28,180 nt of DNA from a virus: positions 1 to 28,180 of IMG/VR virus record IMGVR_UViG_3300029266_002030; one strand, given 5' to 3'. The notes under the pieces were generated by a model that saw nothing but the letters and a program-made list of their open reading frames with translations, was not told the origin of the DNA and ran no database searches. The position numbers and the translations under genes are program-made. Positions 1 to 27,219 of the stretch are shown piece after piece (position 1 is the stretch's first letter; the number at the start of each line of letters is the position of its first letter).

Positions 1-1542
1 CGTATTTTTGTTTGCTGAATTTATTGGGAATTTAACAGCTTGACCACCACAATCATCTTCTTCTCTAGGGGATATTTCTTTTATACCAAGAAAAGAATCT
101 TTAGGTCTAGCTTTCCATTTGTTATGGAATTGGGAAACGGCATAAGCCCTACCATAACTAAATTCGTAAAACACATCTTGACAAGCAATAATTTCACCCA
201 TATTTATAGAAGGTTCTGGATACTTGAAGTAATTAACTCCAAAATAATAAGTTTCAGGTACTACAGTGTTTATATTAATTGACCCAGCTGGGATTCCTGG
301 TAATGTAAAAGGCATGTTTTCCATGGTGTAATACTCTTTTATTTGTGGCACTAAAAAAGCAGCTCTCCTTCTTTGTCTTGCACTACCGGTAGTTTCTAAA
401 GGTTTTACCCTAAACCTATATTTACCCTTTGTGGGTATTCCTACTGTTGGGTCTGGTGACAACTCTCTTTCCCCATATTCGTTTGTTATAACATAGTCTA
501 AATTCATAGGTACATTAACCAACCAAGCACCATTATCATCTATTGTAAAACCACCATTAATATCAAATCTTTCTAAAACAGGTATTTCTTCTATAACATC
601 TGGGTTCGTAGTAAACCCACTTGGTCTGGCTTCTTTTTTCCAGAAAGGTGTAAACCTTACAGACTCTAGAGTACCAGGTTGTGGGACTAAACTACACAAT
701 TCACCCATTTTTCTTTTAGGTTTACATTGTTTATTTACAGAATTCTTTTCAGTATCTGAAGCTACAGAACCCATAAATACGGCTGTCGGTTTTATTTCTA
801 TAGCCCCCATGTCTCTTAAATCAAAATCAGCTCTAGTAATAGAAGCTCCACAACCAGAATCGTCGTCACCCCACAATGGTCTAACATCTATAGATTTTGA
901 CATCATTATTATTTGTGGTAAAGAATCTAAATTAGAACCAGTTTTAAATGCAGCCCCATTAAAATCACTTTCTGGAAATCCTTGTAATTTAAAATCTTCT
1001 GGAACCATAGAAAAACAACCTATATCAGATAAATCTACATTCATAATTAATGATTGTTCACCCAAAGGTGCACCATAAATCATAAAATCACCAGCATCAT
1101 TTGTTTTAGCGTTATATTTGTAATATTTTTGGTAAACATGCTTAACTGATGGGGTTAGAAGTACGTCATCAACATCTGGAAAACTTCCTGTTGGTAGGTG
1201 CCCTGTATAACTAGCCGATGTTGGTAGTAAGTTATACCTGTATCCATCTTCGTTTCTAGAGTTTTGTGATTTATAAGGGTATAATTCTTTTATCTGTGGA
1301 TTTTCAGCATCTACATCATCTAGTGGGATAAAAATAGAAATTTTCGCATTTGGTAACCCAAACCCCCCATTTATTAAAACTCTTCCACAAACAACCCCAA
1401 ACTCTGAACAGTCTTTTGGGTATACGTCTGTCTGATGTAGGTTTAAACTTAGAATCTCTAATAAGTCAAAATCTTGGTTTAAATCAAAGGTAACTTCCTT
1501 ATCTACACCAATTTCAGTTCTTACTCTTAATTTTTTTAGCAT
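1..1542 (-). CDS. Large virion structural protein, N-terminal 514 residues (probable baseplate or tail-fibre component; cut by window edge)
   Basis: The minus strand is open from an ATG at 1542 to the left edge without a stop, giving at least 514 residues (start MLKKLRVRTEIGVDKEVTFD). Residues about 48-76 (GVVCGRVLINGGFGLPNAKI and following) look like the first strands of a carboxypeptidase-regulatory or transthyretin-like beta-sandwich. A second matching half near residues 155-185 (NDAGDFMIYGAPLGEQSLIM) suggests the fold is interrupted by an insertion. The gene follows gp25 and gp6 with a 73-base gap, so by T4 order it could be a gp7-type wedge protein or a fibre connector. That assignment is from position and not from a recognised family. 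No signal peptide or membrane segment is visible. The start is supported by a TATTTAT element 16 bases upstream. Confidence 0.75.
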   Translation of the reverse strand, partial: MLKKLRVRTEIGVDKEVTFDLNQDFDLLEILSLNLHQTDVYPKDCSEFGVVCGRVLINGGFGLPNAKISIFIPLDDVDAENPQIKELYPYKSQNSRNEDGYRYNLLPTSASYTGHLPTGSFPDVDDVLLTPSVKHVYQKYYKYNAKTNDAGDFMIYGAPLGEQSLIMNVDLSDIGCFSMVPEDFKLQGFPESDFNGAAFKTGSNLDSLPQIIMMSKSIDVRPLWGDDDSGCGASITRADFDLRDMGAIEIKPTAVFMGSVASDTEKNSVNKQCKPKRKMGELCSLVPQPGTLESVRFTPFWKKEARPSGFTTNPDVIEEIPVLERFDINGGFTIDDNGAWLVNVPMNLDYVITNEYGERELSPDPTVGIPTKGKYRFRVKPLETTGSARQRRRAAFLVPQIKEYYTMENMPFTLPGIPAGSININTVVPETYYFGVNYFKYPEPSINMGEIIACQDVFYEFSYGRAYAVSQFHNKWKARPKDSFLGIKEISPREEDDCGGQAVKFPINSANKNT

Positions 1543-4469: not shown

Positions 4470-6374
4470 CTATATATCGTTTAATTCTTTTTCTTTTTCT
4501 AAAGATTTTAAATCCACATCTATCTCACATTGTCCACCAGAACAAGCTAACTCACCACTTAAATCAGTATTATCATCTAGTTCTATAACCCTAGTTAAAT
4601 CAATATCTGTTAAAGATTTCATCATTTCCTCATATTTTTCTTCTGTTATATCCTCAAATGGAGCTTGTGTGTATGTCCCACCATTGTAGGGTAATACGGA
4701 AAGTCCATTATAGTGTTTTCTATTTTCCCACATCCACTCCCCAGCTGGGTCCCATTCGTGGTCTCTTAATGAAATTGTAGCTGAAACATTGTGTGAGTTA
4801 GAACCCTTTCTATGTCCACTTCTAACCCATTCTGTTGCGATTTTTTTAACTCTTTCCAATAAATCAAATGGGGACTCTGTTCTCATAATAGCCCCTTTAG
4901 GTGCTTTTTGTGGTACAGAAATAACCGCTGTATCATGTGGTCTAAAGTACTCATCTTCGACTAGTTCTGGGTGGTGTAGGTTTAAGTAAGTGTAAATAGC
5001 TTCGTTTTTACCAACTCTAACCCTCCTAACATAATAATCGTTATGCCATGCATGAATACCAGACGAAGTCCCTAAAGTTAATGATGTTGTTCCAGCTGGT
5101 TTTACCGTAGTTGTTCTAGCTGCTGGATTAATATCTAACAATTTAGAAACTCTAGTATTTTCTCTTTTAACTAAACTAGCAGCTTTTTTTGTATCGTAAT
5201 TTAAAACTTTACCACTACCTATACCAGTCATTGAGACACCAATTAAAGCGTCCTTTTCCGTTGTTTCTTGCCAAACTTCCCTTAAGTAATGAAAAGACGT
5301 GTACCCCGCTTGAAGTGTTCCGATGAAAGCTGCGACCTTTACTCTTTCATTTAAGTCTTCTTGTGATTCTATGTTCGACACATTTACTTCACATAAATTA
5401 CAAAACTGGTAAGGTCTTAACGCTATTTCACAACATGGGTTAGTTCCCCAATCTTTATCGTTGTTTAAATATATACCTGGTTCACCTGCTCCTGATAATT
5501 CAACACGTTTCCAAAGGTTCATAAAAAACTCTTTAGTTATTTTATGTCTCATCAAACAAGCTGAATTATTTGCCCTACCTCTTTGGGGGTTTAATTCCCA
5601 CCAATTACCTGTTTTACAACCAATCATAGAGTCGTCATCCGCTGAAAATAGTGATATAAGGGCTGCTCTTCTAATACCACCAGCTAATACAGCATCTGCT
5701 ATATGACACACAATATCGTGGACTTCTAATGTGGTTAATTGGTCCCCATTTTCTTTTTCTAATAATATACCCTCAATCTTAACTAAACATTCTTTTAATG
5801 GTTGAGGTCCTGGGGCTTTCCCTCCTGAGGTAATTAATCTCGCACCTTTGGCTCTAATATCCGTATAATCAAACTCCACTCTAGACCCACCACCATTCAT
5901 GTATGATTTCATTAAAACCTTAATTGAGTCGGCCCAACCTTCAATAGAATCTCCAATTAAAAATCTCCTCTTTCTTTTTGGATATGGTTTGGATATAACT
6001 GGTAGTTTAGCTACATGGTGTTTTTGAACTGAATAACCTACACCAGTTCCACCTAATAATAGAAACATACATTCTGAAAAAGAATCTATATGGTCAAGTG
6101 GCATGTACGCACAGTTATAAATTCTATTTGGGGATATTTCAATCGGTTTACCCCCGAACTGCATACTCCTCATTGATGGTAGTACTTTTTTGTCGTAGAC
6201 AAATTTATACTTTTCTTCTATTTCCTCTTTTAACTTTGGGTAAGTTTTTATGTGCATGTTTTTATTCCTAGTTACCAACTCTTCCCAAGTCTCCCTTCTT
6301 TCTAGTTCTGGTAGATATTTTGCGTACTTCATGTAGACAGTAATATCCGATAAAATTTTATTCGAAATTTCCAT
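4470..6374 (-). CDS. Class II (adenosylcobalamin-dependent) ribonucleotide reductase
   Basis: A 634-residue monomeric class II reductase of the Lactobacillus leichmannii RTPR type, making deoxyribonucleotides for phage replication using a B12-derived radical. Catalytic residues are visible: C88 (RIYNCAYMPL) as one active-site thiol, then NPCCEIALRPYQFC at 312-325, giving N312, the thiyl-radical cysteine C314, E316 and the second thiol C325. The C-terminal shuttle pair is C611 and C616 (ACSGGQC, a C-x4-C as in RTPR). The loop VEFDYTDIRAKGARLITSGG and KAPGPQPL at 166-193 matches the substrate-specificity and finger-loop region. It is about 100 residues shorter than the 739-residue RTPR, with a shorter distance between C88 and C314. 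No partner small subunit is needed. It begins 15 bases after the helicase gene. Confidence 0.92.
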   Translation of the reverse strand: MEISNKILSDITVYMKYAKYLPELERRETWEELVTRNKNMHIKTYPKLKEEIEEKYKFVYDKKVLPSMRSMQFGGKPIEISPNRIYNCAYMPLDHIDSFSECMFLLLGGTGVGYSVQKHHVAKLPVISKPYPKRKRRFLIGDSIEGWADSIKVLMKSYMNGGGSRVEFDYTDIRAKGARLITSGGKAPGPQPLKECLVKIEGILLEKENGDQLTTLEVHDIVCHIADAVLAGGIRRAALISLFSADDDSMIGCKTGNWWELNPQRGRANNSACLMRHKITKEFFMNLWKRVELSGAGEPGIYLNNDKDWGTNPCCEIALRPYQFCNLCEVNVSNIESQEDLNERVKVAAFIGTLQAGYTSFHYLREVWQETTEKDALIGVSMTGIGSGKVLNYDTKKAASLVKRENTRVSKLLDINPAARTTTVKPAGTTSLTLGTSSGIHAWHNDYYVRRVRVGKNEAIYTYLNLHHPELVEDEYFRPHDTAVISVPQKAPKGAIMRTESPFDLLERVKKIATEWVRSGHRKGSNSHNVSATISLRDHEWDPAGEWMWENRKHYNGLSVLPYNGGTYTQAPFEDITEEKYEEMMKSLTDIDLTRVIELDDNTDLSGELACSGGQCEIDVDLKSLEKEKELNDI

Positions 6375-9265: not shown

Positions 9266-9700
9266 CTAGTTTTCTACTTCTAAAAGTTCAATTTCAAAAT
9301 TTAAATTTTTACCAGCTAAAGGGTGGTTCATATCTAAAGTAACTTCTTTTTTAGTTACTTCAATAATTGTAGCTGTTGCTGATTTACCACCTTTCGTATT
9401 CCCCTCTATCCTTTCGTCAATTAAAAACCTAAATTCTTTTGGAAAATCTTCTCTTGGTACTTTTATTTCAGCTTTCGCTTCATATTCACCATAAGCTTGG
9501 TCTAGTGGTATGTGTATGGATTTTTTTTCACCTATTTTCATAACTCTAATGGTATTTTCAAAATCTCTTAATACCTTACCATCACCTATGTTAAATTCTA
9601 ATGGTTCTTCTCTTTTAACTGAATTGTCAAATTCTTCACCATCTTCAAAGGTACCTATGTAGTGTACCTTAACTTTTTTACCTACTTTTATACTATTCAT
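9266..9700 (-). CDS. SlyD-type FKBP peptidyl-prolyl cis-trans isomerase
   Basis: A 144-residue FKBP-fold prolyl isomerase with the SlyD layout. Residues 1-70 hold the first FKBP half (KVKVHYIGTFEDGEEFDNSV, then LRDFENTIRVMKIGEKKSIH and IPLDQAYGEY). Residues about 72-121 form the inserted chaperone flap. Residues 121-143 close the fold (TLDMNHPLAGKNLNFEIELL), a signature of SlyD proteins. The histidine-rich metal tail of E. coli SlyD is absent. I chose the ATG at 9700, not the GTG at 9730, because the FKBP fold begins there and the ATG overlaps the uvsX stop by 8 bases. Its place between recombinase and nuclease genes suggests folding help for phage proteins, either replication proteins or the many large tail proteins. 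Confidence 0.88.
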   Translation of the reverse strand: MNSIKVGKKVKVHYIGTFEDGEEFDNSVKREEPLEFNIGDGKVLRDFENTIRVMKIGEKKSIHIPLDQAYGEYEAKAEIKVPREDFPKEFRFLIDERIEGNTKGGKSATATIIEVTKKEVTLDMNHPLAGKNLNFEIELLEVEN

Positions 9701-10697
9701 TTTCTTTATCTTCTTTTGTGTCGAATTCACCCCCAGTACCTAATTGTTCTGACCAAAAGGATGCATATTCTTGTTTGTATTTTTCTATTGATTTTTTCTC
9801 TTCTGAGGTTTCTTTACCAGCTAAAAAACCGTGTGGTGCTATTAAAATTTTACCATCTTCGTACCCCAAACCATTAACATGGTTTTTCATTATGGTTATT
9901 TTAGTTCTTGTAGCGAATTTTACTTTTCTTTTATCTTTAACAGCGGAAATGTTAGTGGTTCCAGCGTTTTTTTGGTTACCGAATCTAAAAACTAGTGTCG
10001 AGTTTAACCATAGTGCTTCACCACCTTTAGCTTTTATTTTGGGTTGTCCAAAAGGGTTGTCTGGTAATTCAACCCATGGTTGATTAACCACAACTAAGGT
10101 ATTTGTAAATTTAGAATCTTCTCTTCTAGATTTCCCTATTCTTTGATTTATACCCATACCTATTTTATCAGCTAGAGTTGCTGCGTTATGCATTTTACCA
10201 CCCTTACCTTCAAAAGTCATCTTACACGGTATTGAACCAACTGAATCCCACAAAAACAATAAATCGTAATCTAGCTCACCTTTTTCTTGAGCATCTAATA
10301 ATTCATTAATGTAATCCGTAATTTGTTCTATGTATTGGAAGTCATTATTAAATAGGAAAAAGCCATCCCAATCTAACTCACCAGTTTCTTTGTCTACAGT
10401 TTCCTGACAATCAAAACCCATAAGTTTAGCGTGACTAAACCCCCATTTTTGTTCTGTGATAATAATTACTGGTAAAATATTTTTCTTCTGAGCATCTACA
10501 GCTGCTTTAATTAAAGCAGTTGTTTTACCAGTATCTGAATGTCCTAAAAACATTTGTAAATGACCCATAGCTGGACCAGGTACTCCCGTCGCGTCAAGGA
10601 ATTCTGGTCCTAGGTCAAAAAATTTATCAGCTTTGAACTTAGCTTTTTTAGAGAACTTACTCTTTATGTCGGAAAAACTTCTTTTCTTTAATGCCAT
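9693..10697 (-). CDS. uvsX: UvsX / RecA-like recombinase
   Basis: A 334-residue RecA-fold ATPase that would form filaments on single-stranded DNA and drive strand exchange and recombination-dependent replication. Walker A is GHSDTGKTT at 52-60; Walker B is LLFLWDSVG at 146-154 with D151. The stretch IIITEQKWGF near 78-88 carries the probable catalytic glutamate. Later, VVVNQPW and the motif around KAKGGEALWLNST correspond to the L2/oligomer region. It is shorter than T4 UvsX (391 residues), mainly at the N-terminus. The tail is very acidic (EFDTKEDKENE), as in other UvsX/RecA proteins. It lies directly after the gp32-like gene, so the recombinase and its single-strand partner are made together. 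Confidence 0.9.
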   Translation of the reverse strand: MALKKRSFSDIKSKFSKKAKFKADKFFDLGPEFLDATGVPGPAMGHLQMFLGHSDTGKTTALIKAAVDAQKKNILPVIIITEQKWGFSHAKLMGFDCQETVDKETGELDWDGFFLFNNDFQYIEQITDYINELLDAQEKGELDYDLLFLWDSVGSIPCKMTFEGKGGKMHNAATLADKIGMGINQRIGKSRREDSKFTNTLVVVNQPWVELPDNPFGQPKIKAKGGEALWLNSTLVFRFGNQKNAGTTNISAVKDKRKVKFATRTKITIMKNHVNGLGYEDGKILIAPHGFLAGKETSEEKKSIEKYKQEYASFWSEQLGTGGEFDTKEDKENE

Positions 10698-12768: not shown

Positions 12769-15700
12769 TTATGTTGTTTTTTCTTCAGTTAAATACGAAC
12801 TATTAAAGTTATTTGGGTTTAAGAATATCTCATCTTCTCCTAAATTTTTATTAATAATGTATTTTCTTATCTCGTAGTGTAGGTGTATGCCCGTTGAATT
12901 ACCGGTAGTACCCATAGTGCCGAGTACTAGACCTTTATTTATTCCCTGTCCTTCTGACACCCCAGTTATTGTATTCTCTTTTAGGTGAGCTAGTCTAAAT
13001 TGGTATCTAGATATAGCCCCTTCTACCCACCCAGTAGTGTCTGTTTGTTTAATTAGTGTTTTATCTACATACAGTGAATTTCCGTAACCACCACCACATT
13101 TTTTAGCTTTTTCAGTACTACCAGCTACACAACCAGTAAACTTCTTAGTAACAATACCTGAAACTGGTGATAAAATACTAATATCTACACCCTCAAACTC
13201 TAATTTTGGTTGGTAGTCAATACCTTTATGCATTTTTACCCCACCATTATTTGTTGTCCTTCTAGCCCAAAAAGCTTGATTTGGTTGTGGTGTAGAAATC
13301 TTATTTAAGTCTACCGGGTCTTGTATTGGGAAATCTAGACTACTAATGTCGGCTTCAGTATCCATAATCTTATTATCAACCTCTACACTAGTTAAGTTAA
13401 ACTCATCTAAATCACTATCTACTTTACTTACAGATATTGTTTCCTCAATTTCATCAAATTGTTTTAATAATTTTTCTTGAATCGTAGCCAACATATCCGT
13501 AACTTTGGGTAAGCTTGTTATACCCACCCTAACACCAGTAAATGTTGTTGTCATATCATTTGGGGTTATGGTGTGACTAACATCCATAATAAGGTATGGC
13601 CCACTAAACATAGGAACATATCTTAGTTGGAAATAGGTGGTTGGTTGAATTAGTGCGTTACCCATCGAGGTTACAGTACACTTATAAGACCTAGATTTAT
13701 ATAGATTAAATAAATTTAGTGAGTTAGTAGACACTTTTGAACCAGTCGCCATTTTACCCATGTCTTCCATAATTCTAAACGCCTCACTAGTATTTGGAAA
13801 TTCTGATTGGTCCAATGTTAGGTTCTCAAAAATTTGTTGGTTTGGTATCCCAAAATCAACAGCAAAAGCCATTACCTTATTACTTAATTGTCTTTCTTTT
13901 TCAGTATTAGGTATAGGACCACATAGTGGGTTTGGGTTTGTTCTATTTAAAATAAACGAATCGTTATTATACCCATAGTTAAAACTTTTTATATCTAAAC
14001 TGGTTGATGGTGGCCCAACATACTGACATAGGTATTTAGGTGAGGACTTTGTTGTGTCAACCTCTTTGAAGGCACCAAACATAGTATCTCCTTGTGCTTG
14101 TGTGTTGTTACCTTGCATGTTATAAAAATTAACATAAGCTGGTAACGGTATAAAATTAAATTTATTTAGACTACACATATTACTCATAAACCCACCTATC
14201 GTTTGTTTTACAGAAGTACTTGGTTCGTCAGTAAATGGTGTGTCTAAACCTAAAAACATATAGATATCTACAATAGCTTCATTACCAATATCCCTATTAG
14301 CGTTATCTAAAAACATAAATCTCTCCATAACTGTATTGTGAAAAGTTACACTAGAACCCGCAGTCCTACTAGTGTTTACATCATCACCCTGTACTTTAGT
14401 CCCTGATATCCATTTATCGTTAAACGTTTTAAACACTTGGTATAGTTCTAGTTTTAGGTTGTCAGCTACTATTTTAGGTCTTTGGTCTTCAGAATCATCA
14501 CTAAAATTACCTGATTGGTTATTTAGAGATTTAAATGGGTCTATTTTAGAAATAGCTTTTAAAAATGTAGTTGTGTATAATTCTGTGGTTTGTTTAATAG
14601 CCTTTAATATGTTATTTAAAGCTATATTAAATTCAGATTTACCCATGCCATTATTACTACCCGGAGAGTTTTGTTCTGTGGAAGTTATGTAGGTTTTAAG
14701 TATAGGTGCGAATTGGTAAACTAGCGTGTGTGATATATCGTATTCTTTAAAGAAGTCAAAACATATTTTTGTTATTCTATTAAATTCAGTATTTGAAAAA
14801 CTAATATATTCTCTTGGATATACGTGTTGTGAAATATTGTTAGCAAAAAATGCTGTTGGTGTAATTACTGAGTTATCAAATTTAGGTAATCCTAAAACCT
14901 GATTAGTCCCTACTATATAATCAACTAGTGATAGTGTCGAAGTTGTTTCCGCTGTCAATGACCCTGGTGATACTGTTATGTCCCACCCATTAACTGAACC
15001 GTGTTTGTAAATAACTGATTGGTTTAAAAATATCCTACATACACTTAAGAATTTTTTGTATTGACTTTTTGCTAATTCTTCAGTTGTAACTATGGGGGTT
15101 TCCGATTCTACTTCAGATTTTTTAAGAACCATAAAATCTTTAAAAATGGATTTAAAATTATTGTACTTACCCTCAACAATACTAGCGTCTGGGTTTTGTG
15201 ATTGGGAAAAATTTAAAAATTGTTTTTCAAATTCATCTAAAACCTGTGACGGGAATACCGATAACAACTCACTAAAGTCATCATAAAATGAACCAGCATT
15301 TATATTCCAAGCTTCTTGTTCTGACAAAGATTTATTAATTTTTTTCATATAAGCACTAGGTGGTGCCCAACCATATATAGCACCGTAAGAACCGGGGGTC
15401 CCAACATTATTAACATCAAAAGCACCATAACCAGCACCAGCCCATAAAAATCTAGCACTACCATCAAAACCAGCTGTATTTATATTGTCACCCATAAAAC
15501 TTAAATCTGTATTTACTAAACCACCTGTGGATGGGTATAATATATAATATGGGTCTGTTGTCACATCTACATCTTTAATCCCAGCATTACCAATTGTAAC
15601 AGAATCAGCGAAAGTTGTGTAAAAATTATAAGAAATACCACCTTTACTAAATGAAAGATTTTCTTCTTTTTGTATTTCTAGTTGGAACGAATTTATAAAG

Positions 15701-18700
15701 TTGTTTTGTAGTATTGGTGTTGGTACCCAGGACCCAACAGGACTTAACACGTTAGTACCAGTTACAATATTATTTGTCACATCAATAAGTCTTGGCCAAA
15801 GACCTAACGTTACCTCTGTTGTGTTTAACCCCGGTATTATATTACCATCGTGTGTAAAATCGTAAAACCCAAAAGGATTTGCATAACCTGAGTCTACATA
15901 AAACCTATCACAAGACACATTACCATCTTCACCCATATTAGTAGTTGGGTCCCCACCTAACCCAACAAATATACTTTCTTGGATTGGTTGTGCATTGTTA
16001 TTTTTGTAGTTCCACCAAATAGAACCAAGTTTTAAAACAAAAGAGTATGGTAACTCGTGATAACTCGCTAATTGTTTAATTAATTGTGCAACGTAACCAC
16101 CATACTGATTTTTATTATTAAATTCTTTTATAACTTTTTCTAAAGTACTAGAAAGGGGTAATGAGTTTAAAAATAAATAAGCCGCTTCAACATATGGGTC
16201 AGTAACTGATGTGGTTTCTTTTGTGTTTGCTCTATAGATTGCGTTCGCGAACCAAGGTGTGTTTAACATAGACACACACTGTAGTAAGGGTGAAGTGTTA
16301 TTTATGCCTTCTGTTAAGGGTTGTAGGAGTATATCTTTTTCTGTGGTGTCATAATATTCAACCCAATCTGTTTCTAACTTAAATGTTTTTATAACATCTA
16401 GTTGGTCTGGTTTAGTTATTATACCAAAATTACCGTAGTTACCTGACTCCCAATTTAGATTTGAGAAGAAGAGTTTATGGTTTTCCGTACCGTAAACATT
16501 TGTTTGTGATTGTATATCTAATTCGTCTATTATAAAAAAGTCTGAACCTGAAGCTATACTATCACTATCAGCTAATCTGTTTACTAGACTTTTATTAGTG
16601 TAATTAAATGGGTAATAGTCAAAAAATGCATCATTTGTTTTTTTACTCTGTAAATAAAGATTTTTATACATACCATATTCTCCATTATTGGTGTATTTTT
16701 CTTTTACGCTGGATGTTGGGTATAACCCAAAGTTTGTGCCTATTATATTATTACTATTTACTCTATCATTTATGTATGGTGTATTTATAAAACCAGTTGC
16801 ATCCCACAAGAAATGTGGTCCCGGTGTTGAGTCTTTTAGTTGTAATAATAATTTAGCATAGTCTAGACCATTATCCTTAAAAAACTCAGATAGTTCTAAA
16901 TTTTCTTTAATAGCGAATTCTAAATTTTTACTATCGTTAGTTGCCGCTTGTATTATTGTGTCGGATAGTTGTTGTGGCTTTCCTAGTTGGTATCCGGTCA
17001 CACCAACATAATGGGTAAAATCCTGAGCTCTATCTATTATTTCCCACATTAAATCATATTTAGTTTTTGTCTTATACATTACATTACTAAATGGAAATTC
17101 CCTAACAGATATAGGGATTATTTCAATGACAGTTTCTTCATTTTTTGTCGGTAGTGGTGCTTCGTTTTTCCTAGTTAAAACAGATTTTGTATACTCCTCA
17201 ATAAATTCAACTTCTGGCCATATTTTTTTACTGTAGGCTTTTGTGGTGGATAAACTACCTGCGGCTCCAGGATATTTTAAAACAAGTTTATTTTCCTGGT
17301 CATCAAACTCATAGTATTGAGGCCAAGGAAAAACAGTTGTTTCACCTTTCACAGCATCTTTATAACTTTGCTTATCAGTGATAATCGATTTTACTCTATC
17401 TGGATTATTTCTTTGTTCAAAAGCTTGGGTGTGTACCTTGTCTAGTATTCTTAGGTATGTATCAACCCCAGCTATAACTATAGCTGTCATATTTCTAATA
17501 GTTGGGTTTATCGTTAGACTTTCTTTAAATACTTTATTTAACTTTTCTGTTACCTCAGACTGTATTTCGTTATAATTTTTTTCAAATTCTTCTAGGACTC
17601 TAGCAAAAACCCCACCAAAACTTTTAGGTGTGTCATCTAAAACATACCAACCTTGTTCCGGTACTTCATTTATATTGTTAGCGTTATTACTTCTAGCTCT
17701 TTGGTTTTCTACTTTAAAATCTTTTACTAGGTTAACGGACCCAGGGCCTTTACCCATACCAAAAGTATTATTCTCACCTAATATTTTTTTGTAACCTTCT
17801 ATAATATATTTTAATTTACCTTCAGCATCTTGTATGTATTCAGTTGTTGTTTCTTTAAGACTAACAGCTTGTGTTGTAATTTTTTTACCACCACCCACAG
17901 AAGAACCAACACTAACATCTAATAATATAATTTTACTAGTGTCTACATAATTTTCTAACCAACCGTTAGTACCAAAAATAGCATTATAAAATGTTTTAAG
18001 TTTATCCTGGTATATTTTTTGGTCATTTGTAAATTCTAAATCAACTTTTTTAAAATTTTTCTTTAGGTTGTCTGTGAATGTTTCTACTTTACCTATTAAT
18101 TCAAAAATTGTTAAATGTGGAAAATCTTGTGGTATTAATTGTAATTCTTTATAGATAGTATAAACTTCGTCCATAACTTTTCTACCATAACCTTTTTCTA
18201 TAGTTTCCACACTAGTAGATGTTTGCGTGGTGGTTGGGTATAAATAAGGTGCCAACATCGCTTGTTGTAAATTAATATCATTTAATAATGCTATGTGATT
18301 ACCCACAAAATTAGCGGTAACATTATAGTCACCAGAGTTACTATCAAAACTAGCTTTAAAATTGGTTAGTGCTAGTTGGTATTTTACAGCTTGACCGTAG
18401 TAACCCTTAACTGTTAAATCAAATTGTGGGTAAGGTAAATGAAAAAATGCTGTGTAGGGTGTATTACCTTCTGCTTGTTCAAATAAAGTTTTACCCCTAA
18501 TATCAACAAAAGTTATAGTTACTTCTGGAACAAAAGAAGAACTTATTTTAATATCAATATTTTTTATACCAAATCCTTGGAAGTCATTTTTATTTTCTAT
18601 GGTTTTAGAAATAAAAGTTTGTCCATTTTCGTTAGTATCTTCTTGTCTTTGGATTTTATTCACTGATGGGTCAGTAAACCCTTCAGTCCAATCACTATCT

Positions 18701-18981
18701 AATGATTTTTTATCTACCGGTTTTAAGAAGTTAATTTCACCATCAAATAACTCTACCTTTACACCAGTATCTGAAGCTCCTTTACCAACTATTAATTTAG
18801 ACCTAGGAATAACTCTAGCCACTAAATTAACATAAATCACCAAATCTTCATGCCTAACCAACCGGTCTTCAATACTTTGTCCGTTAGCACTTGTTATTTT
18901 ATTTGGGTCTATGAGTACTAAGTTGTCACAAATTTGTTCAACGTATACTTTCTCACTTGCGTTAATAATCTCATCTGCCAT
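12769..18981 (-). CDS. Giant baseplate hub / tail lysin protein with C-terminal M23 peptidase
   Basis: A 2070-residue protein. Residues about 140-235 (FQGFGIKNIDIKISSSFVPE, then a region with LTVKGYYGQA) and 1760-1825 (CTVTSMGNALIQPTTYFQLR, then YLIMDVSHTITPNDMTTTFT) resemble gp27/gpD-type hub domains. Residues 1902-2060 are an M23 (LytM) zinc endopeptidase: H1918 and D1922 in HKGID, H1999 in LAHLK, and H2033-x-H2035 in HLHYE. All expected zinc ligands and the catalytic histidine are present. In T4 the hub (gp27) and cell-wall enzyme (gp5, a lysozyme) are separate proteins; here they appear fused, with a peptide-cutting enzyme instead of a glycosidase. The long middle section is unassigned. 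The start overlaps the LysM/gp53-like gene by 11 bases. Confidence 0.85.
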   Translation of the reverse strand: MADEIINASEKVYVEQICDNLVLIDPNKITSANGQSIEDRLVRHEDLVIYVNLVARVIPRSKLIVGKGASDTGVKVELFDGEINFLKPVDKKSLDSDWTEGFTDPSVNKIQRQEDTNENGQTFISKTIENKNDFQGFGIKNIDIKISSSFVPEVTITFVDIRGKTLFEQAEGNTPYTAFFHLPYPQFDLTVKGYYGQAVKYQLALTNFKASFDSNSGDYNVTANFVGNHIALLNDINLQQAMLAPYLYPTTTQTSTSVETIEKGYGRKVMDEVYTIYKELQLIPQDFPHLTIFELIGKVETFTDNLKKNFKKVDLEFTNDQKIYQDKLKTFYNAIFGTNGWLENYVDTSKIILLDVSVGSSVGGGKKITTQAVSLKETTTEYIQDAEGKLKYIIEGYKKILGENNTFGMGKGPGSVNLVKDFKVENQRARSNNANNINEVPEQGWYVLDDTPKSFGGVFARVLEEFEKNYNEIQSEVTEKLNKVFKESLTINPTIRNMTAIVIAGVDTYLRILDKVHTQAFEQRNNPDRVKSIITDKQSYKDAVKGETTVFPWPQYYEFDDQENKLVLKYPGAAGSLSTTKAYSKKIWPEVEFIEEYTKSVLTRKNEAPLPTKNEETVIEIIPISVREFPFSNVMYKTKTKYDLMWEIIDRAQDFTHYVGVTGYQLGKPQQLSDTIIQAATNDSKNLEFAIKENLELSEFFKDNGLDYAKLLLQLKDSTPGPHFLWDATGFINTPYINDRVNSNNIIGTNFGLYPTSSVKEKYTNNGEYGMYKNLYLQSKKTNDAFFDYYPFNYTNKSLVNRLADSDSIASGSDFFIIDELDIQSQTNVYGTENHKLFFSNLNWESGNYGNFGIITKPDQLDVIKTFKLETDWVEYYDTTEKDILLQPLTEGINNTSPLLQCVSMLNTPWFANAIYRANTKETTSVTDPYVEAAYLFLNSLPLSSTLEKVIKEFNNKNQYGGYVAQLIKQLASYHELPYSFVLKLGSIWWNYKNNNAQPIQESIFVGLGGDPTTNMGEDGNVSCDRFYVDSGYANPFGFYDFTHDGNIIPGLNTTEVTLGLWPRLIDVTNNIVTGTNVLSPVGSWVPTPILQNNFINSFQLEIQKEENLSFSKGGISYNFYTTFADSVTIGNAGIKDVDVTTDPYYILYPSTGGLVNTDLSFMGDNINTAGFDGSARFLWAGAGYGAFDVNNVGTPGSYGAIYGWAPPSAYMKKINKSLSEQEAWNINAGSFYDDFSELLSVFPSQVLDEFEKQFLNFSQSQNPDASIVEGKYNNFKSIFKDFMVLKKSEVESETPIVTTEELAKSQYKKFLSVCRIFLNQSVIYKHGSVNGWDITVSPGSLTAETTSTLSLVDYIVGTNQVLGLPKFDNSVITPTAFFANNISQHVYPREYISFSNTEFNRITKICFDFFKEYDISHTLVYQFAPILKTYITSTEQNSPGSNNGMGKSEFNIALNNILKAIKQTTELYTTTFLKAISKIDPFKSLNNQSGNFSDDSEDQRPKIVADNLKLELYQVFKTFNDKWISGTKVQGDDVNTSRTAGSSVTFHNTVMERFMFLDNANRDIGNEAIVDIYMFLGLDTPFTDEPSTSVKQTIGGFMSNMCSLNKFNFIPLPAYVNFYNMQGNNTQAQGDTMFGAFKEVDTTKSSPKYLCQYVGPPSTSLDIKSFNYGYNNDSFILNRTNPNPLCGPIPNTEKERQLSNKVMAFAVDFGIPNQQIFENLTLDQSEFPNTSEAFRIMEDMGKMATGSKVSTNSLNLFNLYKSRSYKCTVTSMGNALIQPTTYFQLRYVPMFSGPYLIMDVSHTITPNDMTTTFTGVRVGITSLPKVTDMLATIQEKLLKQFDEIEETISVSKVDSDLDEFNLTSVEVDNKIMDTEADISSLDFPIQDPVDLNKISTPQPNQAFWARRTTNNGGVKMHKGIDYQPKLEFEGVDISILSPVSGIVTKKFTGCVAGSTEKAKKCGGGYGNSLYVDKTLIKQTDTTGWVEGAISRYQFRLAHLKENTITGVSEGQGINKGLVLGTMGTTGNSTGIHLHYEIRKYIINKNLGEDEIFLNPNNFNSSYLTEEKTT

Positions 18982-25657: not shown

Positions 25658-25849
25658 TTACCTTTGGTTTTTATTCCTAGCAGTCTCGATTGCTTGATTT
25701 CTTTGTTGGATTTCTTCGGAAAATTTGTTAAGATAGAACCTTCTTTCAAAGATTGGCATCTTTAAAATGTCTTCTCTAGTAAAATTAAAGTTTTTAGTTA
25801 GGTAGTAAATCTCTTCCAATAGGGCATACCTATAGCCCGAAGAAAGGAC
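25658..25849 (-). CDS. Frameshifted extension of the tail assembly chaperone (T-like part)
   Basis: This frame is open from an in-frame TAA at 25861-25859 down to the TAA at 25660-25658, and has no ATG before codon 31. It lies +1 (equivalently -2) relative to the upstream chaperone gene and overlaps its last codons. Reading from GTC at 25849 gives 63 residues, including YYLTKNFNFTREDILKMPIF and ERRFYLNKFSEE. The 'EDIL.MP..ERR' helix is like that of small chaperone partners (gp51/DUF6760-like) coded between tube and tape measure in many phages. A TTG at codon 11 could allow separate initiation, but a frameshift fusion fits better. The predicted fusion with the upstream gene is 309 residues. 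Confidence 0.7.
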   Translation of the reverse strand, partial: VLSSGYRYALLEEIYYLTKNFNFTREDILKMPIFERRFYLNKFSEEIQQRNQAIETARNKNQR

Positions 25850-26588
25850 GAAAAAAGTTTAAACCAAAATTAACGGTAAAATTAACATCTTTACCGGATG
25901 GTGATTTTGCCACTCTTTCTAACTCTAAACCAGGTTCAACAGTACTTAAGAATTTTCTAATTTGTTGAGCATCGAACAAGGGTAATTTATGTATTTCTAA
26001 AGATATTGTCATTGGGTCTCTTTCACCGTCTATGTCTACAACACATTTTTCTAGTTTCTTTGTAGCCATAGGTTTTACTTTCATATTTTTGTAACTTTCT
26101 TCTAATACTTGGAAATGTTTTGCGTCTTCGGGTGTTAACAGTCTTAATTTACACTTTTTACCCGATTTAGGTAGTGTGTAATCAAAAGTTCCGTCTGAGT
26201 TAGGTTTAGTATCCACTTCTTTAGTTCTTAGTACTGAAAGGTCTAAAACGTGTTCAAACTCTTTCCCGGTTTCTGGGTCTTTTAATGTAAATTTATATTC
26301 TGGACCAAAAGCCGTATTTCTTAAAAACACATATATAGCTTGTTTATCACATTCAGCTAAATTTACAACATCGACATCTTTATCTAAAACTTTAGCTTTT
26401 AGTAATGTATCCATTAATTCACCAGATTCTGATAGGTTAGGTGAGGTTAGGATATTCTCGTCAGCTGCTGTTAGGTATGAAACCTTTAAAGCTTTTTTCT
26501 TATTTTTGTAAAACACCCCGTTAGATGGTAATTCCACTAAATCGTATGGGATTGTAGGGTCTATTTCGTTTTGTTGTAAATTTTCCAT
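25830..26588 (-). CDS. Tail assembly chaperone / gp26-like protein (G-like part)
   Basis: A 252-residue protein. Near the N-terminus IPYDLVELPSNGVFYKNKKK is followed by LKVSYLTAADENILTSPNL. This is the opening of the T4 gp26-type family (Pfam T4_baseplate as I recall), in which 'LPS.G..Y' precedes a strand and an 'EE.IL' helix. Such proteins sit between tail tube and tape measure genes and act as tape measure chaperones in related phages. I chose the ATG at 26588; a TTG 27 bases upstream is less likely. The zero-frame end is RPFFGL, just past a slippery run, and a second frame continues to 25658. A terminator and operator-like repeats precede the gene. Confidence 0.82.
   Translation of the reverse strand: MENLQQNEIDPTIPYDLVELPSNGVFYKNKKKALKVSYLTAADENILTSPNLSESGELMDTLLKAKVLDKDVDVVNLAECDKQAIYVFLRNTAFGPEYKFTLKDPETGKEFEHVLDLSVLRTKEVDTKPNSDGTFDYTLPKSGKKCKLRLLTPEDAKHFQVLEESYKNMKVKPMATKKLEKCVVDIDGERDPMTISLEIHKLPLFDAQQIRKFLSTVEPGLELERVAKSPSGKDVNFTVNFGLNFFRPFFGL
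25846..25865 (-). other. Candidate programmed ribosomal frameshift site
   Basis: In the zero frame the minus strand reads GGT TTA AAC TTT TTT CGT CC. A +1 slip of tRNA-Phe from TTT (25853-25851) to TTC (25852-25850) places GTC next and opens the downstream frame. The core TTT CGT C equals the +1 site of influenza PA-X (UCC UUU CGU C). A -2 slip over the same six T would give the same frame. The overlapping T TTA AAC is also a standard -1 heptamer. Confidence 0.65.
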
Positions 26589-26730: not shown

Positions 26731-27219
26731 TTAGTAAACTAATATACACCTATCAGGTCTCAATGTTGCTGCTATATTAGCTAAACCTTCATCACTATAA
26801 GCTAAATCATTAAAGTTAACATCTGTTAAGAAACAACCTTGTAATACCCATTTTTCTACAACTACCCCAGTTGGGTCTAGCATCTCTAAATCTATATTCT
26901 TTTTATATCCTGCCGCATAACCCATTCTACCTGTAACAGATTCAGCATGTAACCTTACCCATTCCATCAATGCTTGTGAAGCTGATGGTCCGATTGGGTC
27001 TCTAAACGTTACGTTAATTGTACCCCAAACAAATCTACCAGCTACATATGTTGAAGTATTTAGGAATGGTATCTCTACAGACCCTATCGTAACTTGTGGT
27101 CTTGAAGTACTTTCTACGTACCATTCGTTAATACCTAAAGAAGAATCAAATCTCATTATAAACCTATTCTTTTTCTTTGGTTCATAGGGTACGGGCATTT
27201 TCATTAATAAATCGGCCAT
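26731..27219 (-). CDS. Tail tube protein, T4 gp19-like
   Basis: A 162-residue protein of the same size as T4 gp19 (163), which stacks as hexamers to form the inner tail tube. The pattern is typical: an N-terminal FIMRFDSSLGINEWYVES strand pair, then PQVTIGSVEIPFLNTSTYVA, WGTINVTFRDPIGPSASQAL and a C-terminal segment with LQGCFLTDVNFNDLAYSDEG. These match the 'w....i.f.Dp.gpsa...l..Wv..' pattern of the gp19 family. The gene is followed by a strong terminator. Two TATTTAT elements lie in the 97-base leader. A sheath protein gene would be expected beyond the right edge. Confidence 0.92.
   Translation of the reverse strand: MADLLMKMPVPYEPKKKNRFIMRFDSSLGINEWYVESTSRPQVTIGSVEIPFLNTSTYVAGRFVWGTINVTFRDPIGPSASQALMEWVRLHAESVTGRMGYAAGYKKNIDLEMLDPTGVVVEKWVLQGCFLTDVNFNDLAYSDEGLANIAATLRPDRCILVY

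Follow-up and report, generated by a model that had tools for sequence, protein, structure and literature searches.

A probable programmed +1 ribosomal frameshift in a tail-hub assembly chaperone gene of the T4 gp26/gp51 family

The gene for a tail-hub assembly chaperone of the T4 gp26/gp51 family, located on a virus record of 28,180 bases that was analysed over its whole length (the window), is very probably subject to programmed +1 ribosomal frameshifting. In the mechanism proposed, most ribosomes would stop at the zero-frame TAG and release a gp26-like short form of 252 aa, while a fraction would be held up at a rare CGU arginine codon, where the phenylalanine tRNA in the P site could slip forward from UUU to UUC and reading would go on in the +1 frame. 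The product of the shift would be a gp51-like long form of 309 aa carrying a small three-helix domain. By analogy with gpG and gpGT of phage lambda, the two forms, made in a set ratio, may escort the tape measure or the hub and recruit tube subunits.

On the minus strand the genes follow each other in the order tail tube, gp26-like gene, short overlapping +1 frame and a 728-aa gene (Table 1). Around the proposed shift site this strand reads AAC TTT TTT CGT CCT TTC TTC GGG CTA TAG, with TTT in both the E site (25856-25854) and the P site (25853-25851), CGT in the A site (25850-25848) and then a C. Past the CGT the zero frame passes through CCT TTC TTC GGG CTA to the TAG (25832-25830), which gives the short product the C-terminus NFF-RPFFGL*. 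An earlier note on this DNA had described a zero frame AAC TTT TTT CGT C that stops 18 bases past the CGT, and a +1 frame that is open for 63 more codons with no ATG at its start, and both descriptions are borne out. In the +1 frame a TAA stands just before the site and no further stop follows up to 25661, so that the change of frame must fall within about 29 bases. The string TTTTTTCGTC has a single occurrence in the window, both strands counted. An in-frame TTT-CGN pair is seen once in 20 reading frames of the window where about 0.7 would be expected by chance, so that the bare motif is unremarkable by itself and the case must rest on relatives. Only 9 of the 8965 codons of the window are CGT, and this rarity is consistent with a slow A site.

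Table 1. Features of the window around the overlapping frames
Feature	Position	Strand	Basis
Tail tube gene (gp19-like), upstream neighbour	26731..27219	minus	phrog_4542, E=8.2e-30; PF06841, E=0.00039, below cut-off
Short 252-aa product of the zero frame (gp26-like hub/tail chaperone)	25830..26588	minus	PF12322, 31.5 bits vs cut-off of 24.5; phrog_150, E=7.5e-10
+1-frame TAA just upstream of the site	25859..25861	minus	Bars entry into the +1 frame from further upstream
Proposed +1 shift site, TTT TTT CGT C	25847..25856	minus	TTT/CGN conservation in protein-selected homologues
+1-frame extension: re-paired TTC, 63 codons (25852-25661), stop	25658..25852	minus	Probable gp51-like C-terminal domain
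Presumed tape measure gene, 728 aa	23448..25634	minus	ORF; position and size

Of the gene order tube, chaperone, extension and tape measure that the earlier note had read from the DNA, the tube (phrog_4542) and the place of the chaperone stand, while the 728-aa gene is presumed to be the tape measure from its position and size, not from homology. It has no significant match in Pfam or PHROG, and in Flavobacterium phage immuto the gene at the corresponding place is annotated as tape measure. A tRNA and Rfam search of the window gave no match. Elsewhere in the window, a gene at 12769-18981, within the tail gene region, encodes a protein of 2070 aa that carries a peptidase M23 domain close to the C-terminus, positions 4470-6374 encode a ribonucleotide reductase that matches the B12-dependent type, and an ORF at 9266-9730 resembles, by eye, an FKBP/SlyD-type prolyl isomerase.

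Codon statistics were compiled from 137 non-redundant homologues, the loci of which were found via protein patterns plus a few named phages; loci chosen by a DNA pattern were left out, as their use would have been circular. The P-site codon is TTT in 136 of the 137, compared to 80% TTT at other phenylalanine codons, and the lone exception is an artefact of the scoring rule (the gene reads TTC TTT CGC), making the count effectively 137/137. Arginine in the A site is encoded by CGN in 124/124 genes versus 15% elsewhere in the same genes (p=5.5e-91, although Fisher p-values count related genes as independent and so overstate the certainty, the exceptionless pattern being the stronger point), and AGA or AGG make up 1000 of the 1171 other arginine codons in these genes (85%). 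The E site is TTT in 130 of the homologues. Among the 71 genes found by patterns from the N-terminal half only, the P site is TTT in all 71 and the A-site arginine is CGN in 61/61. TTT and CGN are both required if a phenylalanine tRNA on UUU is to re-pair on UUC.

The site and the +1 frame are both kept in 22 close homologues, and a DNA scan for TTTTTCGNCCNTTCTTC found 119 viral loci, in about 110 of which a gp26-like frame ends at the match and the same +1 domain comes after it. A comparison of homologues for the TTT CGT C core and the overlap, as the earlier note had suggested, thus finds both kept across the clade with +1 extensions, with sister groups varying in the A site; loss of the overlap was sought within this clade and not found. 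As judged from the codon counts, the shift site is under strong selection, and part of its nucleotide conservation could stem from dual coding in the overlap.

The stretch that the shift would append behaves as coding sequence. A profile built from the +1 frames of the homologues matches at 291 loci, and in 289 of these the extension is in the +1 frame. The two others are L033, where the gp26 frame is apparently broken near the contig end, and LR756511 (L031), a large phage in which the gp51-type domain is in the -1 frame with an ATG beside the gp26 stop, and where the domain may be a separate gene or be reached by a -1 shift. Past the zero-frame stop, dN/dS in the window subclade is 0.10 in the +1 frame and above 1 in the other frames, indicating that in this subclade the extension is under purifying selection in the +1 frame only. 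Folded separately from the short form, the extension is modelled by AF2 as three helices (pLDDT 92).

The same stretch could be translated as a small gene of its own, from a weak start, with re-initiation or coupling following termination at the gp26 stop. The extension frame of the window contains no ATG, and the earliest codon in it that could serve as a start is a TTG near 25819, within the conserved domain. That such a TTG is present, that several relatives are annotated with separate ORFs and that an ATG, GTG or TTG occurs somewhere in the interval in many homologues would suit a separate gene. Yet in 16 of the 137 lineages, including the close relatives L005, L012 and L014, there is no ATG, GTG or TTG between the upstream +1 stop and the conserved core, and where a start exists its position varies and is often within the conserved domain. 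A separate gene would also leave the fixed TTT and CGN codons immediately upstream unexplained, and we consider it very unlikely.

Two further routes would lead to the fusion itself. At TTTTTT the P-site tRNA could re-pair two bases back, so that a -2 shift as in phage Mu reaches the same frame, and the run of TTTTTT or TTTTTTT found at the site in most members could let RNA polymerase slip and drop one U, part of the mRNA then encoding the fusion directly. The T run is, however, broken in the variants TTC TTT CGY (L029, L192, L203), TTT CTT TGG (immuto) and AAC TTT CTA (LR756508). All of these still have UUU or CUU with a pyrimidine next to it, which fits P-site +1 slippage and disfavours both alternatives: +1 re-pairing is retained and -2 re-pairing lost, and the overlap is kept where the run is just TTT. 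The choice of CGN instead of AGR matters for forward re-pairing only, and slippage of the polymerase would not demand it. We therefore regard a -2 shift as even less probable than a separate gene, and transcriptional slippage as the least probable of all. Given the startless lineages, the variants lacking the T run and the CGN codons, an independent start, a -2 shift and transcriptional slippage are all rejected as general explanations.

For the +1 shift, which is the reading retained here, a possible additional stimulator is present in most of the clade. The glycine four codons before the P site is GGG in 105/128 genes, compared to 163/1500 elsewhere, and pairing with the 3' end of the 16S rRNA averages -7.1 versus -1.3 kcal/mol elsewhere; against synonymous recoding this Shine-Dalgarno (SD)-like pairing reaches p<=0.05 in 31% of the genes, so that part of the pairing energy is owed to the amino acid sequence. 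The window subclade shows no clear SD-like upstream element (-2.7 kcal/mol), and a search for a 3' stimulatory structure gave no signal (mean z of -0.3 over 59 sequences, plain shuffles). The elements identified for the window itself are the slippery codon and the rare codon only. With neither an SD-like element nor a 3' structure, the efficiency of the shift in this subclade could be low.

The short form of the window falls in PF12322, the T4 gp26/gp51 family, above the curated cut-off (Table 1). The fold of its AF2 model (pLDDT 88.5) matches T4-like baseplate hub assembly proteins, while comparison to solved structures gave no significant match, the HK97 chaperone 2ob9 being returned at E=6.3. 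T4 gp26 and gp51 both match PF12322 (E=8.8e-64 and 3.9e-52, respectively) as well as each other (hhalign probability 98.8, E=1.4e-16). Along the 282 positions of phrog_150, T4 gp26 covers 14-235 and the short form of the window 11-233, whereas T4 gp51 covers 13-280 and the frameshift fusion 11-274; the fusion raises the score by 7.5 bits, from 39.7 to 47.2. The extension alone matches phrog_634 (gp51) weakly (E=0.028), its fold search gave weak matches only, including one at E=3.1 to a protein named ‘baseplate hub assembly catalyst’, and neither hhalign of the +1 clade against small T4-like profiles nor its profile comparison with five T4-like gp51 sequences was significant. The link of the +1 clade to the T4 family rests on PF12322, phrog_150 and the fold matches.

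The +1 site in a T4-like chaperone proposed in the earlier note is supported by conservation, with the correction that the gene belongs to the gp26 family and that its extension is most likely the counterpart of the C-terminal domain of T4 gp51, an essential protein whose function is given as unknown in PMC3004832. On sequence grounds, T4 gp26 and gp51 are paralogues, apparently representing the short and the long form as separate genes; most simply read, T4 encodes in two genes what the phage of the window would make as two products of one gene. The two T4 genes (L308:6803-8229) are on opposite strands with no overlap or shift, and gp51 has an additional C-terminal part. phrog_634 also matches in Bacillus subtilis and Deinobacterium chartae, which served as control genomes, and the extension weakly resembles DUF6760; the gp51-type domain may occur in bacterial tail-like elements.

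A gp51-type domain in the -1 frame is found in Syn9, S-PM2, S-CAM7, Syn33, Melnitz, Cr30, phi-pp2, EniLVp02 and LPCS28, and also in one Rhizobium phage and one Stenotrophomonas phage. These phages have a U_UUU_UUN heptamer at a Phe-Phe pair just before the gp26 stop, and their public records either give the domain as a separate protein some 40-60 aa long or lack it. Environmental relatives of this type (L329-L408, 76 non-redundant) have the heptamer T_TTT_TTC in 75/76 and the domain in the -1 frame in 74/74 with a match. In a tree of 39 proteins all +1 genes form one branch (support 100/99), and the -1 genes lie with T4 gp26 and gp51 on its other side; the two T4 proteins pair together with moderate support (88/79), their placement being unsure due to long branches. 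Within the +1 clade, UUU_CGN is found in the window group and in Streptococcus phage GXN1, and UUU_UGG in Mel-JY01, RM378 and most of ten MAG contigs. The sister group (L026, L027, L230 and L231-L240) shares the +1 overlap and has a Trp codon in the A site, with variants CUU_UGG in immuto and UUU_UUC in L238; SP-15 has UUU_CAC and LR756508 UUU_CUA.

On balance we lean towards a scenario in which the T4-type phages have in common one ancient hub/tail chaperone that is encoded with a frameshift, shifting at the Phe-Phe pair at the end of gene 26 by -1 (U_UUU_UUC) in cyanophages and others and by +1 (UUU_CGN or UUU_UGG) in one large clade; T4 gp51 would then have arisen by duplication into separate short (26) and long (51) genes, and the cyanophage ‘gp51’ would be the frameshift extension rather than an independent gene. 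This wider pattern, with a direction that differs between clades, seems to be unreported, and no earlier report of frameshifting in the gp26/gp51 family was found in the open-licence papers searched. If true, frameshifted tail chaperones reach the T4-type contractile phages, where none is annotated in the records examined, an origin and a testable role are offered for T4 gp51, and one recoding site has a direction that differs between clades. Phages would also offer a large natural collection of +1 sites of the UUU_Ynn type, and the gp51 annotation would probably be corrected in hundreds of cyanophage-type records.

Tail chaperones expressed by frameshifting are known from lambda (-1) and Mu (-2) (PMC5009743). 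Like lambda gpG/gpGT, the window gene would yield a short and a frameshift-extended chaperone from a locus between tube and presumed tape measure, with the shift just before the first stop, and it likewise combines two overlapping frames and a conserved shift site with no conserved second start. It differs from lambda in its protein family (PF12322), its contractile T4-type tail and its proposed +1 shift at UUU_CGN, the role being suggested by analogy. In T4, gp26 equals the short form of the window and gp51 adds the C-terminal part, as separate genes without overlap. In Syn9, S-PM2, Cr30 and phi-pp2 the extension overlaps the gp26 end at the same Phe-Phe codons as in the window gene, but it is in the -1 frame, at the canonical U_UUU_UUN, and annotated as separate genes.

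With a P-site UUU, a slow codon starting with a pyrimidine and re-pairing in +1, the proposed site is of the UUU_Ynn type. In a 1997 study, Schwartz and Curran reportedly quantified +1 frameshifting in E. coli at UUU CGG and UUU CGU, including in the context of prfB. In bacteria, UUU_Ynn is documented as prone to +1 shifting, for instance in YopN-TyeA (PMC5009743), and UUU_CGN is known from influenza PA-X and other eukaryotic viruses (PMC5009743, PMC3498833). PA-X shares with the window UUU_CGN, the +1 direction and a rare arginine codon in the A site (PMC3498833), but is decoded by eukaryotic ribosomes, has an important E-site UCC where the window has UUU, and concerns an unrelated protein and function; in the family studied here the E site is TTT in 130 of 137 genes, and sister groups have UGG in place of CGN. 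Of the PA-X-like site claimed in the earlier note, the UUU_CGU core and the +1 direction are supported, while PA-X is only an analogy, as UUU_Ynn sites prone to +1 shifting are documented in bacteria and the sisters use UUU_UGG, CUU_UGG, UUU_CAC and UUU_CUA. As in YopN-TyeA and prfB (CUU_UGA; PMC5009743), a P-site UUU or CUU in the +1 clade would slip onto a pyrimidine, with an SD-like element in most of the clade; the window differs from prfB, which pairs an A-site stop with such an element, in having a sense codon in the A site and no clear SD-like element in its subclade. A +1 shift is also considered very likely in the tail chaperone gene of HSTV-2, a haloarchaeal, contractile-tailed virus, which resembles the window gene in this respect as described in PMC5009743. 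A PA-X-type site in a T4-like chaperone had seemed new to the earlier note; a +1 shift in a tail chaperone gene had already been suspected in HSTV-2.
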